Source: Nitrospirae bacterium CG02_land_8_20_14_3_00_41_53 (GTDB lineage Bacteria > Nitrospirota > Thermodesulfovibrionia > Thermodesulfovibrionales > SM23-35). Taken from it: a stretch of 47,129 bases of DNA. Position numbers and translations under genes: made by a program. Position 1 is the first letter of the stretch; every line of letters begins with the position of its first letter. The notes under the pieces are model-generated. The model did no database searches and was not told the origin of the DNA. It worked only from the letters and a program-made list of their open reading frames with translations. Below are positions 2,246-47,129 of this stretch, piece by piece. Where the stretch lies: assembly GCA_002780895.1 (NCBI GenBank), contig PEUB01000118.1, positions 1 through 47,129 of the forward strand, written 5' to 3'.

Positions 2246-2904
2246 TGTTCTTTCTTTGGTCTTCCCCATGGAAGTGCAGTCATCCTCCTCCCAAGCAATT
2301 TCTCTATTTTTAATATGAAGTTGTTATCACCGCATGGACGTCCTGTCCTTGTGTTTTGCCTTATCTCATTTTCCAGAGTCTTATCTTCTTTCTCTCTCAA
2401 ATATGCCGCCCAGTCTTTTATCTTTTCAATAATGTAACAGTCTTCTGATATTATAGAATCTGTTCTGCCCTTTACATGACTTATTGCGCTTGACCACTTA
2501 TATTCTTCTGCTCTCTTTACTATCTTTGCCCTGACTGGGTTGTTTTCTACATATCTTATCCCTGCATAAAGATGCCTCTCATCAAGCACACACGAAAAAA
2601 ACCGCCCCTGCCACAGATGACCAGTTGCTTTATTCCTCATATTGAAATACTGAGAATATCGCATATGAAGCGCATTGAAGGTCTTTGACAGTGAATCAGT
2701 TTCCATAGGCACTGCAATGAAGTGCACATGATTCCCCATAAGACAGTATGCCCATATCTTTAATGAATATTTACTGCTGTAAAGTTTCAGCCACTCTAAA
2801 TATTGTTGATAATCTCCTTCTCTTTCGAAAACTGCCTGGCGATAATTGCCTCGTTGAGTTATATGATGGGGATACCCTATCGATACTGCACGGGCTATTC
2901 TTGG
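2239..2904 (-). CDS. REP-associated tyrosine transposase (RAYT, Y1/HUH)
   Basis: This is a Y1-type transposase of about 221 residues starting MPRIARAVSIGYPHHITQRG. I choose the internal ATG at 2904 because family members begin at this MPRIAR segment; an upstream ATG at 2943 exists. It has the HUH metal-binding motif in MGNHVHFIAVP, the conserved GHLWQGRF segment, and the catalytic-tyrosine region YVENNPVRA. The basic C-terminus ends in WGRPKKEQK. It is flanked by perfect 23-bp inverted hairpins, its likely substrates. By family knowledge the enzyme nicks and rejoins single-stranded REP hairpins. The frame is complete, so it may be active. Confidence 0.9.
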   Translation of the reverse strand, partial: PRIARAVSIGYPHHITQRGNYRQAVFEREGDYQQYLEWLKLYSSKYSLKIWAYCLMGNHVHFIAVPMETDSLSKTFNALHMRYSQYFNMRNKATGHLWQGRFFSCVLDERHLYAGIRYVENNPVRAKIVKRAEEYKWSSAISHVKGRTDSIISEDCYIIEKIKDWAAYLREKEDKTLENEIRQNTRTGRPCGDNNFILKIEKLLGRRMTALPWGRPKKEQK

Positions 2905-43753: not shown

Positions 43754-43989
43754 CTCGAAAATCGTCTTGACAATAAAAAGGCTTTAACCAATAATTAAGC
43801 TACAAACCCTCTCTTTCTAATATGAGGTAGCAGTCATGGGGTAGTAACAGTTAGTAACGATGAATCAGGAAGATTAACAGTAGCTTTTCAATACGACCCT
43901 TTGTTTGTTCAAAAGGTCAGAACCATTGAAGGCCGAAAATGGCATCAGGATAAAAAATACTGGAGTTTTCCTGATACGGATGAAACCTT

Positions 43990-44034
43990 AACCCCCCATT
44001 CCCCCCTTAACTTAAGGGGGGATGAAGGGGGGTT
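43990..44034. repeat. GC-rich palindromic element, copy 7 (in recombinase remnant)
   Basis: aaccccccattccccccttaa ... ttaaggggggatgaaggggggtt interrupts the recombinase between ETL and VFKGEKIHLD and reads as TPHSPLNLRGDEGGL. Confidence 0.88.
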
Positions 44035-44099
44035 AGTCTTTAAAGGCGAAAAAATTCATTTAGACCCCGCCCTGCAAAATAAACTCAAGACTCCTTTAA

Positions 44100-44129
44100 G
44101 TCATTGCGAGCCAAAGGCGAAGCAATCTC
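44100..44129. repeat. 'gtcattgcgag...agcaatctc' repeat in recombinase remnant
   Basis: Read through as SHCEPKAKQSQK, about 18 bp upstream of palindromic copy 8. It is the same family as 10999, 29508 and 43713. Confidence 0.8.
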
Positions 44130-44146
44130 AAAAAGATTATACCGAT

Positions 44147-44190
44147 AATCCCTCCATCCCCCCTTTAGAAAAGGGGGGCAAGGGGGGATT
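44147..44190. repeat. GC-rich palindromic element, copy 8 (in recombinase remnant)
   Basis: aatccctccatccccccttt ... aaggggggcaaggggggatt reads NPSIPPLEKGGKGGF. Confidence 0.9.
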
Positions 44191-44581
44191 TGAAGACCTC
44201 CGTAGAGAACTGGTCTCAAGAAAATACAGTTACAAAACAGTCAAAGGCTATCTCTATTACAATAGGGACTTCCTAAGTTTCATTAAGAAGGAGCCTGCTG
44301 ATGTTCGGGAAGAGAGAAACAATTAAAATATTTCGGGAATGCTTACAAATTTTTAATAAAGAGAATTGAAAATAGCTTGAAGAAATAAAAAAAGTGCGGG
44401 GTATATTCAGGAATTACTTGGACAAGCGAGCAGCAAGACGACTGAAATCTACACCCATGTGAGTACTATGAGCATAGGCAGAATAAGAAGCCCTTTGGAT
44501 AACCTGGATATTGAAGGAGGTGATAGAGGCAAAAGAAAAGAAGAAGAAGGAGAAGCCGCTCTGCGGCCAGAAGTGAAATAA

Positions 44582-44650
44582 CCGCACCGTGGTGCAACTT
44601 TCATTCTATTTTTCGGACAAAAGTTGCACCTGAGTGCAATTGTGAACGAG
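44582..44650 (+). promoter_or_regulatory. Putative attI and leader region with alternative hairpins
   Basis: GGTGCAACTTT (44591-44601) pairs exactly with AAAGTTGCACC (44620-44630). The same TTGCAC half can instead pair with GTGCAA at 44634-44639. The segment ends in aacgaG|TTAG, whose G|TT junction (44650/44651) marks the first cassette boundary, so attI should lie here. A cassette promoter is expected in this stretch, but I saw no convincing box. Confidence 0.6.
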
Positions 44651-44685
44651 TTAGTTGTTCATTGTGGACAGATTAGAGGAGAGAA

Positions 44686-44880
44686 ATGAATATTTATCAG
44701 CGGATTGTTTTGATATTAGGTGCTTTAGCTTTATTAGTCTTGGGCCTTAATATAGAAAATTTATTTAATGAATACAGTATCTATTTCATTATCTATTTTT
44801 TAGCTGGTATGCTCACGATTATAGGCACAACCTTATTACTGTTTTTTGCATTAAAAGGCATTAAGAAGGAAAAGGAGTAA
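44686..44880 (+). CDS. Small two-helix membrane protein (cassette 1)
   Basis: This 64-residue protein begins MNIYQRIVLILGALALLVLG, has two membrane helices (about 7-22 and 31-55), and ends in a basic tail (LKGIKKEKE). A clear ribosome site (AGAGGAGAG) precedes the ATG, 36 bp from the cassette boundary. Small membrane proteins of this MNxxQRIVLxxG type occur in bacterial accessory DNA; the function is unknown. It is followed 4 bp later by the second gene of the same cassette. Confidence 0.75.
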   Translation: MNIYQRIVLILGALALLVLGLNIENLFNEYSIYFIIYFLAGMLTIIGTTLLLFFALKGIKKEKE

Positions 44881-44884
44881 ACCC

Positions 44885-45181
44885 ATGAGAGGAAAAGGTC
44901 CGGGCGGTATGAGAACAAGGGATGCAATTCATCAAGTCATTAGCAAATTGCAAAGAGCTACAGGAAAAGACATTTTTAAGGAGGTAAAGAAAATTTACAA
45001 CTGGGGGGATCACAATATTTTACGTCACATTATGGCACAGACAATTAATCTGCAACCTGGATATTCTGAATGGGTTTTTATAAAGCATCATGAAAAATGT
45101 CTTTTCTTATGTGAAGATGGTTATTTTGAACTTTATAACCCAACTGAGCATGGAAATTTTGTTGATGGGATAAAATCATAA
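44885..45181 (+). CDS. Small hypothetical protein, possible winged-helix (cassette 1)
   Basis: This 98-residue soluble protein begins MRGKGPGGMRTRDAIHQVIS. The first part (TRDAIHQVISKLQRATGKDI, then FKEVKKIYNW) looks like a small helix-turn-helix or winged-helix unit. The second half (SEWVFIKHHEKCLFLCEDGY) looks like a beta-rich module. A similar unannotated family is common in cassettes and defence-rich DNA. The ribosome site AAGGAG lies in the end of the previous gene, so the two are coupled. Function not assignable. Confidence 0.65.
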   Translation: MRGKGPGGMRTRDAIHQVISKLQRATGKDIFKEVKKIYNWGDHNILRHIMAQTINLQPGYSEWVFIKHHEKCLFLCEDGYFELYNPTEHGNFVDGIKS

Positions 45182-45216
45182 TAATGAGAAGTTTTATTTA
45201 TATCCGCCCGCAACGA

Positions 45217-45284
45217 CAACTAACATGGCACAAAAGACTAAAGTCCAAATCCTTCAGGCTTCTTCTGTGCCAAGAACGTTAGCC
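45217..45284 (+). other. attC site 1
   Basis: R'' CAACTAAC (45217-45224), L'' TGGCACAAAAGA (45226-45237), L' TCTTCTGTGCCA (45261-45272, complementary to L'' at 11 of 12) and R' GTTAGCC (45278-45284). The recombination point is G45278|T45279. Confidence 0.85.
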
Positions 45285-45979
45285 GTTCATTGCAGGCAAG
45301 GGAAAGATAAAATGAGGTAGAAAGACATGTTAACAAAAAGACTGAAATGGTGTTCATTAGGAATAGCGGTAATATTTCTTCTATTTATCATGTCACCGGC
45401 ACTGGCAGAAAAGTGGAGTCAACGTTATATCGAAAGTCTTTCAGATTCTGCTTTTGCTTCCATTGAAATTACAAAAGATGGGAAAAAGATTAGACATCTT
45501 CCCCATCATAACCATATAGGAGAAATTGATATTTATCATTTGAAAAGCGCTCTAGGCAGAATTCATCAGGTAAAATGGATAGACCCTACAAACTTTGACA
45601 GAGCTAAAGTCCACTTGGAGCAACACTATCTGGATTACAAGCAGAAACGGGCTAAAGCTTTTGGACTAAAAAGTATCGTTAACATCAACAAGGCATCAGC
45701 TAAGGAATTAATGCAACTCCCTCACATTGGAGAAAAACGGGCACAGAATATAATTGGGTATCGAAAAACGCATGGTAATTTCAAAAGTATAGGAGAGTTG
45801 AGACGTGTTCCTGGTATCGGGCCTAAGATATTTAAAGATGTCGAGGGTCTTGTTACTGTGGAATAGAGTTTAGAAAAAGGAAATGAAAGATTCTATTATT
45901 TAAATGCCTGCAACGGGCGGCTAACATGGCGGAAAAGACCGACGTTCAAACCCTCTGGGCTTCTTTTCCGCCAAGAACG
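45279..45979 (+). mobile_element. Integron gene cassette 2
   Basis: It starts TTAGCCGTTCATTGCAGGC and ends GCCTGCAACGGGCGGCTAAC plus attC. GTTAGCCG and TTGCAGGC at the start are exactly complementary to CGGCTAAC and GCCTGCAA at the end. One secreted helix-hairpin-helix protein is carried. Confidence 0.88.
45327..45866 (+). CDS. Secreted ComEA-like helix-hairpin-helix protein (cassette 2)
   Basis: This 179-residue protein has a signal peptide (about 1-27, ending SPALA). The middle region (28-115) is of unknown fold and contains HLPHHNHIGEIDIYHL and a GRIHQVKWIDP stretch. The C-terminus (118-179) has two helix-hairpin-helix units typical of ComEA: VNINKASAKELMQLPHIGEK and FKSIGELRRVPGIGPKIFKD. 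ComEA-type HhH domains bind double-stranded DNA in the periplasm during uptake. The extra middle domain makes this different from plain ComEA. It is the only gene in its cassette. Confidence 0.85.
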   Translation: MLTKRLKWCSLGIAVIFLLFIMSPALAEKWSQRYIESLSDSAFASIEITKDGKKIRHLPHHNHIGEIDIYHLKSALGRIHQVKWIDPTNFDRAKVHLEQHYLDYKQKRAKAFGLKSIVNINKASAKELMQLPHIGEKRAQNIIGYRKTHGNFKSIGELRRVPGIGPKIFKDVEGLVTVE

Positions 45980-45985
45980 TTATCT
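45919..45985 (+). other. attC site 2
   Basis: R'' GGCTAAC (45919-45925), L'' TGGCGGAAAAGA, L' TTCTTTTCCGCCA and R' GTTATCT (45979-45985). The stem is longer than in attC1, with a short bulge. Recombination point G45979|T45980. Confidence 0.85.
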
Positions 45986-46029
45986 GCTCAGTGCGGGTAA
46001 TAAAATATAAAGAAATAAGGATAAAATAT

Positions 46030-46665
46030 ATGCGTGAGGACGGGCTGATAATTTATCGAACATCCAGAGACAATGGATTCAGAGTTGATTATGATTATTT
46101 TTACCAGCAAAGCAGGCTTCATACAAACTGGGGTAATCCAGTAGCTGACATACGTAATAAAATATATTTTTTAAACCAATTTCGTTGTCATCTTCCTAAT
46201 GCAATTGCTGACGACCTTCTACCTGTATTAGAGAACGTATCTCCTCTTTTTACTCTGGTTCAAGGTGTCGAGATTCAGGACTTAAATGAAAGAGAAGAAA
46301 TCTATCCAGTTATTCAAGAAATATTTGAAAGACTGAGGGGTGGTGTAAGAAGATTTAGAGAGACCGCTACAAGCAAGTTTATGCATATGACTTGCCCAAA
46401 CTTGTTTGCTATGGCTGACAGTGTAATAACCGGTTACATGCAGCGCGACAATATTATTAACCACTATTTAATGGTCAGTGAAGATTATAATAGGCTCTTA
46501 AAGTACTATTGCAATGAAATTAATGAGTTGTTAGAAGATGTTATGGATAGACATGGGGTCAATCGTTTAGAGGCGATAAATCGGGTTAGGGAAAAAGATA
46601 ATTACGCAGTAGGCTCTATTCCAAGAATCATTGACAAACATTTCTATTGGCGTGCAACTCATTGA
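46030..46665 (+). CDS. Hypothetical helical protein (cassette 3, gene 1)
   Basis: I start at the ATG at 46030 (MREDGLIIYRTSRDNGFRVD), giving 211 residues; the frame extends to a GTG at 45991 that lies within attC2-derived sequence and is less likely. The protein is soluble and mainly helical, with NKIYFLNQFRCHLPNAIADD and RRFRETATSKFMHMTCPNLF. I recognise no family. The TSKFMHMTCPNLFAMAD segment is the most likely functional core. The second gene of the cassette begins 14 bp after its stop. Confidence 0.65.
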   Translation: MREDGLIIYRTSRDNGFRVDYDYFYQQSRLHTNWGNPVADIRNKIYFLNQFRCHLPNAIADDLLPVLENVSPLFTLVQGVEIQDLNEREEIYPVIQEIFERLRGGVRRFRETATSKFMHMTCPNLFAMADSVITGYMQRDNIINHYLMVSEDYNRLLKYYCNEINELLEDVMDRHGVNRLEAINRVREKDNYAVGSIPRIIDKHFYWRATH

Positions 46666-46678
46666 GAATAAGAAGAAA

Positions 46679-46948
46679 ATGCCACCATTTGATGAGATAT
46701 GGAATCGTATTATCGCTCATGCTGGAGAGAATTTTTACACAATAACTGGACTTGAGTTTAGATACGAGATAGACGGTAACATTTTCTGCCCAAGCCGAAC
46801 AGACTACAAGATTCCAAAAGCTGATTTCGAAAAGGTTTATCCTCTCGTTCCTTTTGATGGCCCAGGTAGAATCAATAATATCGCCAGAGGCCCTTCCTAT
46901 ATTTGGGCAGTTCTTCACGACCGCAGAATTTCTAATGGAATGTGGTAA
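46679..46948 (+). CDS. Hypothetical protein (cassette 3, gene 2)
   Basis: This 89-residue protein starts MPPFDEIWNRIIAHAGENFY (ATG at 46679 after AAGAAG). An upstream TTG at 46631 would overlap the previous gene. Visible motifs are FYTITGLEFRYEIDGN, PSRTDYKIPKADFEKVYPLV and RGPSYIWAVLHDRRI. The FxTITGxxFxY, PSRTxYxIxKxxFEK pattern looks like a small conserved family of unknown function often found in cassettes, but I cannot name it. No membrane segment or signal peptide. Confidence 0.7.
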   Translation: MPPFDEIWNRIIAHAGENFYTITGLEFRYEIDGNIFCPSRTDYKIPKADFEKVYPLVPFDGPGRINNIARGPSYIWAVLHDRRISNGMW

Positions 46949-46975
46949 TGAATATTTTATTGTGCCCGCACCGAC

Positions 46976-47042
46976 AGATAACATGGCGGAAAAGACTCTC
47001 GTCAAAACCCATAGGGCTTCTTTTCCGCCAAGAACGTTATTT
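46976..47042 (+). other. attC site 3
   Basis: R'' AGATAAC (46976-46982), L'' TGGCGGAAAAGA, L' CTTCTTTTCCGCCA and R' GTTATTT (47036-47042). Recombination point G47036|T47037. The hairpin arms are nearly identical to those of attC2. Confidence 0.85.
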
Positions 47043-47129
47043 GGAAATGGCGGCGAGGAAAATAAGTTAGGAGGCACCGACAATGAGACCGATACGGACA
47101 GTAGTAACGCAAGTAATATGGATGTTGCT
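47037..47129 (+). mobile_element. Start of integron gene cassette 4
   Basis: The left end of a fourth cassette begins TTATTTGGAAATGGCGG. Its 3' end and attC lie outside the window. Confidence 0.75.
47083..47129 (+). CDS. 5' fragment of cassette 4 gene
   Basis: A ribosome site (TTAGGAGG) precedes ATG at 47083; the first residues read MRPIRTVVTQVIWML. The rest is cut off by the window edge, so the function cannot be told. Confidence 0.4.
   Translation, partial: MRPIRTVVTQVIWML

Follow-up and report, generated by a model that had tools for sequence, protein, structure and literature searches.

A cassette array with attC-like hairpins beside the remnant of a XerA-related tyrosine recombinase: probable integron-like capture without the IntI-specific domain

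Introduction

Capture of gene cassettes by integrons is generally discussed in terms of the integrase IntI, whose additional domain, I2, was called necessary for cassette capture and the source of the single-strand activity of integrases; according to the same account no other protein contains it, and no intermediates are known (PMC7790495). IntegronFinder, too, requires the IntI-specific domain for the call of an integrase (PMC9668308). The window analyzed here, a stretch of 47,129 bases (bases 1-47129 of the 51,178-base contig C115 of the 2.0-Mb, Nitrospirota-like genome G000), ends in a series of short genes separated by hairpins, which an earlier note had described as a chromosomal integron, naming neither an integrase nor an attI. 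Thus, it was our interest to ask which recombinase serves this array and whether the locus is an integron in the standard sense. Both parts are present upstream of the first cassette, the recombinase as a remnant (about 43805-44521) and behind it the attI. With considerable confidence we attribute the array to integron-like cassette capture by a tyrosine recombinase that is related to XerA and has no IntI-specific domain. No earlier description was found in a limited search of the open-access literature, and priority is uncertain.

Results and Discussion

Cassettes, attC hairpins and attI

Three complete cassettes and the start of a fourth lie within the window (Table 1). The earlier note had made its reading depend on further attC downstream, and these were found: beyond the window, contig C115 contains three more attC, the last of them reaching C115:50976, as well as two runs of N, and a seventh cassette begins before the contig ends, so that the array comprises at least seven cassettes. 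They are short, with a median of 648 bp, and unidirectional. A second, sister array is located in the same genome on contig C122 (L016). An Rfam scan of the window gave zero matches. The product of cassette 2 combines a signal peptide-like start with a helix-hairpin-helix domain and is exported-looking and ComEA-like, which points to a possible DNA-uptake function as cassette cargo.

The positions given for the three hairpins in the earlier note proved correct, and each displays a 53-nt core between AAC of R'' and GTT of R', so that every cassette has its own folded attC with the crossover at G|TT. Their arms had been called near-identical, which applies to the second and third hairpin, both with TGGCGGAAAAGA/TCTTTTCCGCCA, whereas in the first the change is compensated, the arms being TGGCACAAAAGA/TCTTCTGTGCCA. 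The L stem covaries over 22 sites, with changes on both sides in seven of 12 pairs, and 0 of 500 shuffles attained the observed score. In window-type sites the 12-bp L stem is fully paired without a bulge and the extrahelical G of the L box, by which strand choice is set in IntI-defined integrons, is absent; asymmetry sits in the spacers (1 nt versus 5 nt) and in the outer wobble. The same attC was found in relatives within Nitrospirae / Thermodesulfovibrionales, and a search of the viral contig collection for the exact attC pattern gave 0 matches.

The insertion point of the window lies between 44650 and 44651, the position of the attI having been located solely from the pairing of the first cassette's end with a candidate start. 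At least eight loci share this fixed entry point, at the same place and with the same motif: the crossover follows the recombinase stop codon by 116-129 nt in most loci and by 68-105 nt in some, and the motif, always an A-rich AACRAG|TT or GTAG|TT, stands behind two locus-specific palindromes. The arrays on C115 and C122 are nearly identical as far as the crossover G of the attI and diverge beyond it. In the attI alignment the palindromes vary in sequence among loci while their symmetry is kept, which suggests that the attI may fold or may bind paired recombinases. At L166 (minus strand) a transposase-like gene is situated between recombinase and attI, and the crossover is shifted to +1395.

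Table 1. Features of the cassette array and its recombinase remnant, in window positions unless a locus or contig is given.
Feature	Position	Strand	Remarks
N-terminal recombinase remnant, HARP-XerA type (pseudogene)	43805..44326	+	tblastn; ORF 43901-44326
C-terminal remnant of same recombinase, ending ..SSKTTEIYTHVSTMSIGRIRSPLDNLD	44402..44521	+	tblastn; TIGR02249 27 bits; translation
attI	44579..44650	+	paired palindromes GGTGCAACTTT..AAAGTTGCACC, ending GTGAACGAG|TT
Outer-helix start arm, cassette 1	44650..44667	+	partner 45207-45224, paired in circle only
Cassette 1	44651..45278	+	ORFs 44686-44880, 44885-45181; without informative family match
attC of cassette 1	45218..45278	+	R'' 45218-45224, core 45225-45277, R' from 45278
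Outer-helix start arm, cassette 2	45278..45297	+	partner 45906-45925
Cassette 2	45279..45979	+	ORF 45327-45866, Pfam HHH_3 75 bits
attC of cassette 2	45919..45979	+	core 45926-45978
Outer-helix start arm, cassette 3	45979..45997	+	partner 46964-46982
Cassette 3	45980..47036	+	ORFs 46030-46665, 46631-46948; without family match
attC of cassette 3	46976..47036	+	core 46983-47035
Cassette 4 start (nuclease-like)	47037..47129	+	runs past window to C115:47624; also G000:C122, G142:C125, G288:C53
Same cassette body, differing attC cores	L012 4114-4233; L016 ~2419-2477 (-); L100 2516-2569, 3687-3747

The recombinase

The recombinase remnant adjoins the cassettes upstream on the same strand and lacks the middle of the gene. 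In tblastn searches with P0002, a 372-aa protein of G021 and one of the intact relatives, residues 8-134 matched L012:305-811, which corresponds to window 43805-44311, and residues 330-369 matched the C-terminal remnant with 72% identity. The same attI recurs at the array on C122, accompanied by a similar remnant. Being a remnant, the gene of the window probably has no activity of its own, unless a recombinase encoded elsewhere acts in trans. GC-rich palindromic repeats (CCCCCATTCCCCCCTTAA..) occur within the remnant (window 43990-44030 and 44155-44195), elsewhere in genome G000 and inside other relatives of the recombinase.

Intact relatives consist of a HARP-like N-terminus with a conserved G.RW.P..K.W.FP motif (18.2 bits against HARP, PF07443, where the Pfam gathering cut-off is 25), followed by a catalytic part of the XerA type (NF040815: P0002 240 bits, L105 235 bits, curated cut-off 220). 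With 208 bits they stay under the cut-off of 265 of the IntI model TIGR02249. Judged from their sequences, all 14 relatives are devoid of I2, a result that refers to intact proteins because this gene part is deleted in the window copy: KGRKDRYT and HTLRHSF are 75 aa apart in 14/14 relatives versus 116 aa in 19/19 IntI. In an alignment with IntI of V. cholerae (2a3v) the segment in between measures 28 aa versus 70 aa, a loss of about 42 residues, and the alignment to the XerA structure 5hxy is unbroken. In the tree the recombinase clade (support 99/99) and IntI (100/100) are separate. Of the earlier designation as chromosomal integron the site-specifically inserted cassette array with attC-like hairpins is retained; the recombinase, however, is not an IntI, given that its intact relatives do without the IntI-specific domain. 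Multiple, variable copies beside cassettes also argue against a role in chromosome dimer resolution at dif sites.

Association of the hairpins with the recombinase

To relate hairpins to recombinases, 230 genomes of the class were searched with the recombinase protein, and loci were picked without reference to hairpins. Within 6 kb downstream of the recombinase on the same strand, 15 type-specific hairpins were detected in 52 kb, compared with two in 370 kb at all other positions, where the class offers about 11 loci with room to look, several arrays lie in fragmented MAGs and many contigs end right after the recombinase. Around IntI genes the same detector gave a single match, in a total of 1.29 Mb of strand. 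No such array lay within 1.5 kb of XerA-like relatives that show 36-46% identity and are without the HARP-like part, and at L170 there is sequence room for an array yet the hairpin is absent.

These distributions bear on the possibility that a normal IntI serves the arrays in trans, as CALINs of ordinary integron cassettes, the neighbouring recombinase being unrelated. Genome G000 does possess two full-length, intact IntI-type genes that could act in trans, both with N-terminal extensions (C15:148-1455, TIGR02249 420 bits; C55:~690-2148, 366 bits), and IntI1 was reported to recombine very diverse attC, archaeal and phage ones included (PMC9668308, PMC9892861). However, no recognisable attC array was found beside either gene, for which reason they were rejected as owners of the array, and the hairpin type is nearly absent around IntI while enriched beside this recombinase, with a single insertion site directly after its gene. 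Moreover, the recombinase is present with no IntI above the cut-off in G021, G142, G186, G189 and G118, and attC were detected in the first three of these, G021 being one contig and 100% complete; no clear attC was found in G189 and G118. Service in trans by IntI is accordingly regarded as unlikely.

Pairing of cassette ends

The complementarity of cassette ends had been described in the earlier note as specific to each cassette, and this was borne out: on the contig, five cassettes allowed the test, and every one of them scored best with its own end (28-41 versus at most 24 with any other). Past the 7-nt R box, pairing amounted to 17.2 with the own end versus 6.6 in crossed combinations (n=11 consecutive, unselected cassettes; permutation p<=1e-4), whereas IntI cassettes of the same class (n=23) gave 5.1 own versus 5.8 crossed (p=0.86). 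Mismatched ends were encountered in 8 of 19 consecutive segments and are accountable only by assuming missed attC or fusions.

The outer helix is laid out as GTTRRRY, four bases and then 7-14 bp that vary by cassette. The fourth of the four bases reads A in the start arm, whereas the end arm, taken as its reverse complement, has G there; this combination occurred in 23/27 cassettes and the opposite in 0/27, the 27-cassette folding set including pairing-selected cassettes, so that statistics rest on the unselected sets. This difference reads as G.T on the bottom strand and as A.C on the top strand or in a transcript; the signature was found in 0/23 cassettes of IntI arrays. Because only the own end pairs, the extra helix exists solely in the circle, where the predicted stability of the bottom strand is -29.5 kcal/mol versus -18.2 kcal/mol in the array, the extra helix contributing about -11. 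Predicted folding favours the bottom over the top strand in 25/26 and 117/117 cases.

Self-pairing was previously taken as what circular cassettes give after insertion. That it reflects a circular intermediate is upheld, although its length of about 20 nt exceeds what IntI arrays offer, namely 8-10 nt in the same class and at most 9-11 nt in known integrons (PMC2727003). Long end pairing as a general integron trait was ruled out by the same-class IntI arrays, the class 1 plasmid L086 and the cyanobacterial plasmid L085. The pairing of about 20 nt with its strand-specific wobble is a feature of this system.

It might be objected that the clade is no more than IntI in a slightly altered form and that the long pairing is normal integron biology in a favourable sample, since published attC pairing already comes to 9-11 nt and both the R''-L''-L'-R' layout and the AACRAG|TT end of the attI resemble classical integrons. 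Against this speak the missing domain in 14/14 relatives, the separate clade at 99-100% support, and the IntI cassettes, in which neither the own-end effect nor the wobble was seen, which makes this explanation very improbable. A service of the complementary ends to the cassette transcript, as a 5'-3' panhandle or terminator, instead of to recombination is hardly credible: the ends do flank every gene and could pair in the transcript, but read as transcript the conserved mismatch would be A.C, the G.T wobble arising only on the bottom DNA strand, and the pairing is cassette-specific and located exactly at the crossover.

Relatives in IMG/VR, plasmids and phages

A scan of IMG/VR with P0002 recovered relatives at 80 loci, with identities of 41-51%. 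Most of them are about 270 aa long, without the HARP-like part or I2, and are encoded divergently from their arrays. Like the window type, they combine a recombinase without the IntI domain with own-end pairing and the wobble signature; unlike it, they have no HARP-like N-terminus, and their arrays are placed as in classical integrons, on the opposite strand and upstream of the recombinase. In this position 285 hairpins were counted versus 17 in all other positions. End pairing was 14.5 own versus 6.2 crossed (permutation maximum 7.0). Among 173 of these metagenomic cassettes the wobble signature appeared in 160 and its reverse in 0, and bottom-favouring differences outnumbered top-favouring ones by 174 to 5. 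All array-bearing recombinases fall on one side of a 100/100 branch separating IntI. At L178 - L257, up to 17 hairpins were seen in 8 kb, with cassettes of about 160-700 bp and cores of 40 nt to 120 nt.

Named relatives stem from Chryseobacterium plasmids and from Polaribacter and Cellulophaga phages. The Chryseobacterium plasmids L258 and L259 carry the recombinase and an AAACAAG|TT site, and the detector left their attC-like repeats unresolved; for a relative on a Persicobacter megaplasmid a clear array was not found. At L258 (NZ_CP041688.1, 9056-17056), the HARP-like recombinase and AAACAAG|TT are accompanied by unidirectional small genes, a group II intron and an element of the IS110 family; insertion near attC is known for elements of either kind.

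A possible course of capture and its relation to integrons

The following course would fit these arrays. The recombinase gene is followed by the attI with its two locus-specific palindromes ending in AACRAG|TT. In a circular cassette, the bottom strand at the attC would fold into a three-helix hairpin consisting of an L stem of 7-12 bp, spacers of 1 nt versus 5 nt, a 7-bp R helix at the cut, the four bases with the G.T wobble and an outer helix of 7-14 bp. The wobble should aid the choice of the bottom strand, and the recombinase, which we infer to cut these sites, would join the attI to the folded bottom strand at G|TT, the substrate presumably taking a single-strand route, to which the stability bias of the bottom strand points indirectly. 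After insertion the halves of the outer helix would sit at opposite ends of the cassette and the site would revert to a weaker two-helix hairpin. Since the outer helix is split on insertion, capture should be favoured over re-excision, and the circle-only helix would thereby bias the reaction and offer a simple physical reason why capture prevails over loss.

With sedentary chromosomal integrons (IntI/attI/attC) the locus shares a recombinase gene with an attI next to it, short unidirectional cassettes in tandem whose attC are palindromic (R''-L''-L'-R'), the G|TT crossover and the favoured bottom strand. It differs in that the recombinase does without the I2 domain of IntI, the 12-bp L stem has no extrahelical base, the spacers are 1 and 5 nt, a third helix exists only in the circle, and the attI carries paired palindromes. 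Treponema-type integrons (PMC3607928) likewise have the recombinase upstream of the array on the same strand, but with an IntI of their own and ordinary attC. XerA-like recombinases (NF040815, PDB 5hxy) share the catalytic domain, with full contiguous alignment and a score of 240 versus 220 bits, whereas the additional HARP-like N-terminus and the association with an attI and a cassette array are particular to the present type. The system would work like an integron, yet is not one by the standard definition of an IntI with its extra domain, and IntegronFinder, which needs that domain, should report a CALIN at best.

Beyond the window, we lean towards a broader assumption, in which a widespread second kind of integron captures cassettes through folded single-stranded DNA by means of a XerA-type recombinase without I2, with strand choice and a bias for insertion over excision provided by a cassette-specific, circle-only third helix with a wobble on the bottom strand only. 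Such a system would either have arisen independently of known integron recombination or have survived from its ancestor. If an attI/attC/cassette family without I2 is accepted, the reaction would be possible without this domain, the origin of integrons would become directly testable, and mobile cassettes in large number would have escaped surveys that depend on the IntI domain.

Mobility of cassettes and exchange of cores

The nuclease-like cassette occurs in four contexts: as the fourth cassette of C115, as the first of C122, as the first of G142 at the attI, and in G288, a member of another class. In C115, at the attI of G142 and in G288, the shared sequence TTATTTGG.. begins directly after the crossover G and is preceded by unrelated sequence. 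Between C115 and C122 the body and R'' are kept while the attC core differs, and L100 contains two copies of a 429-bp cassette that are 89% identical and have different cores (Table 1). A simple model in which a cassette moves together with its attC does not predict the differing cores of the nuclease cassette copies; hairpin cores may be exchanged separately from cassettes. In the second array, at L016 (minus strand), a stray hairpin core (GAACGAGATACGCAAAATG..CATTTCGCCCGTTATATG) stands immediately behind the attI and ahead of the first cassette.
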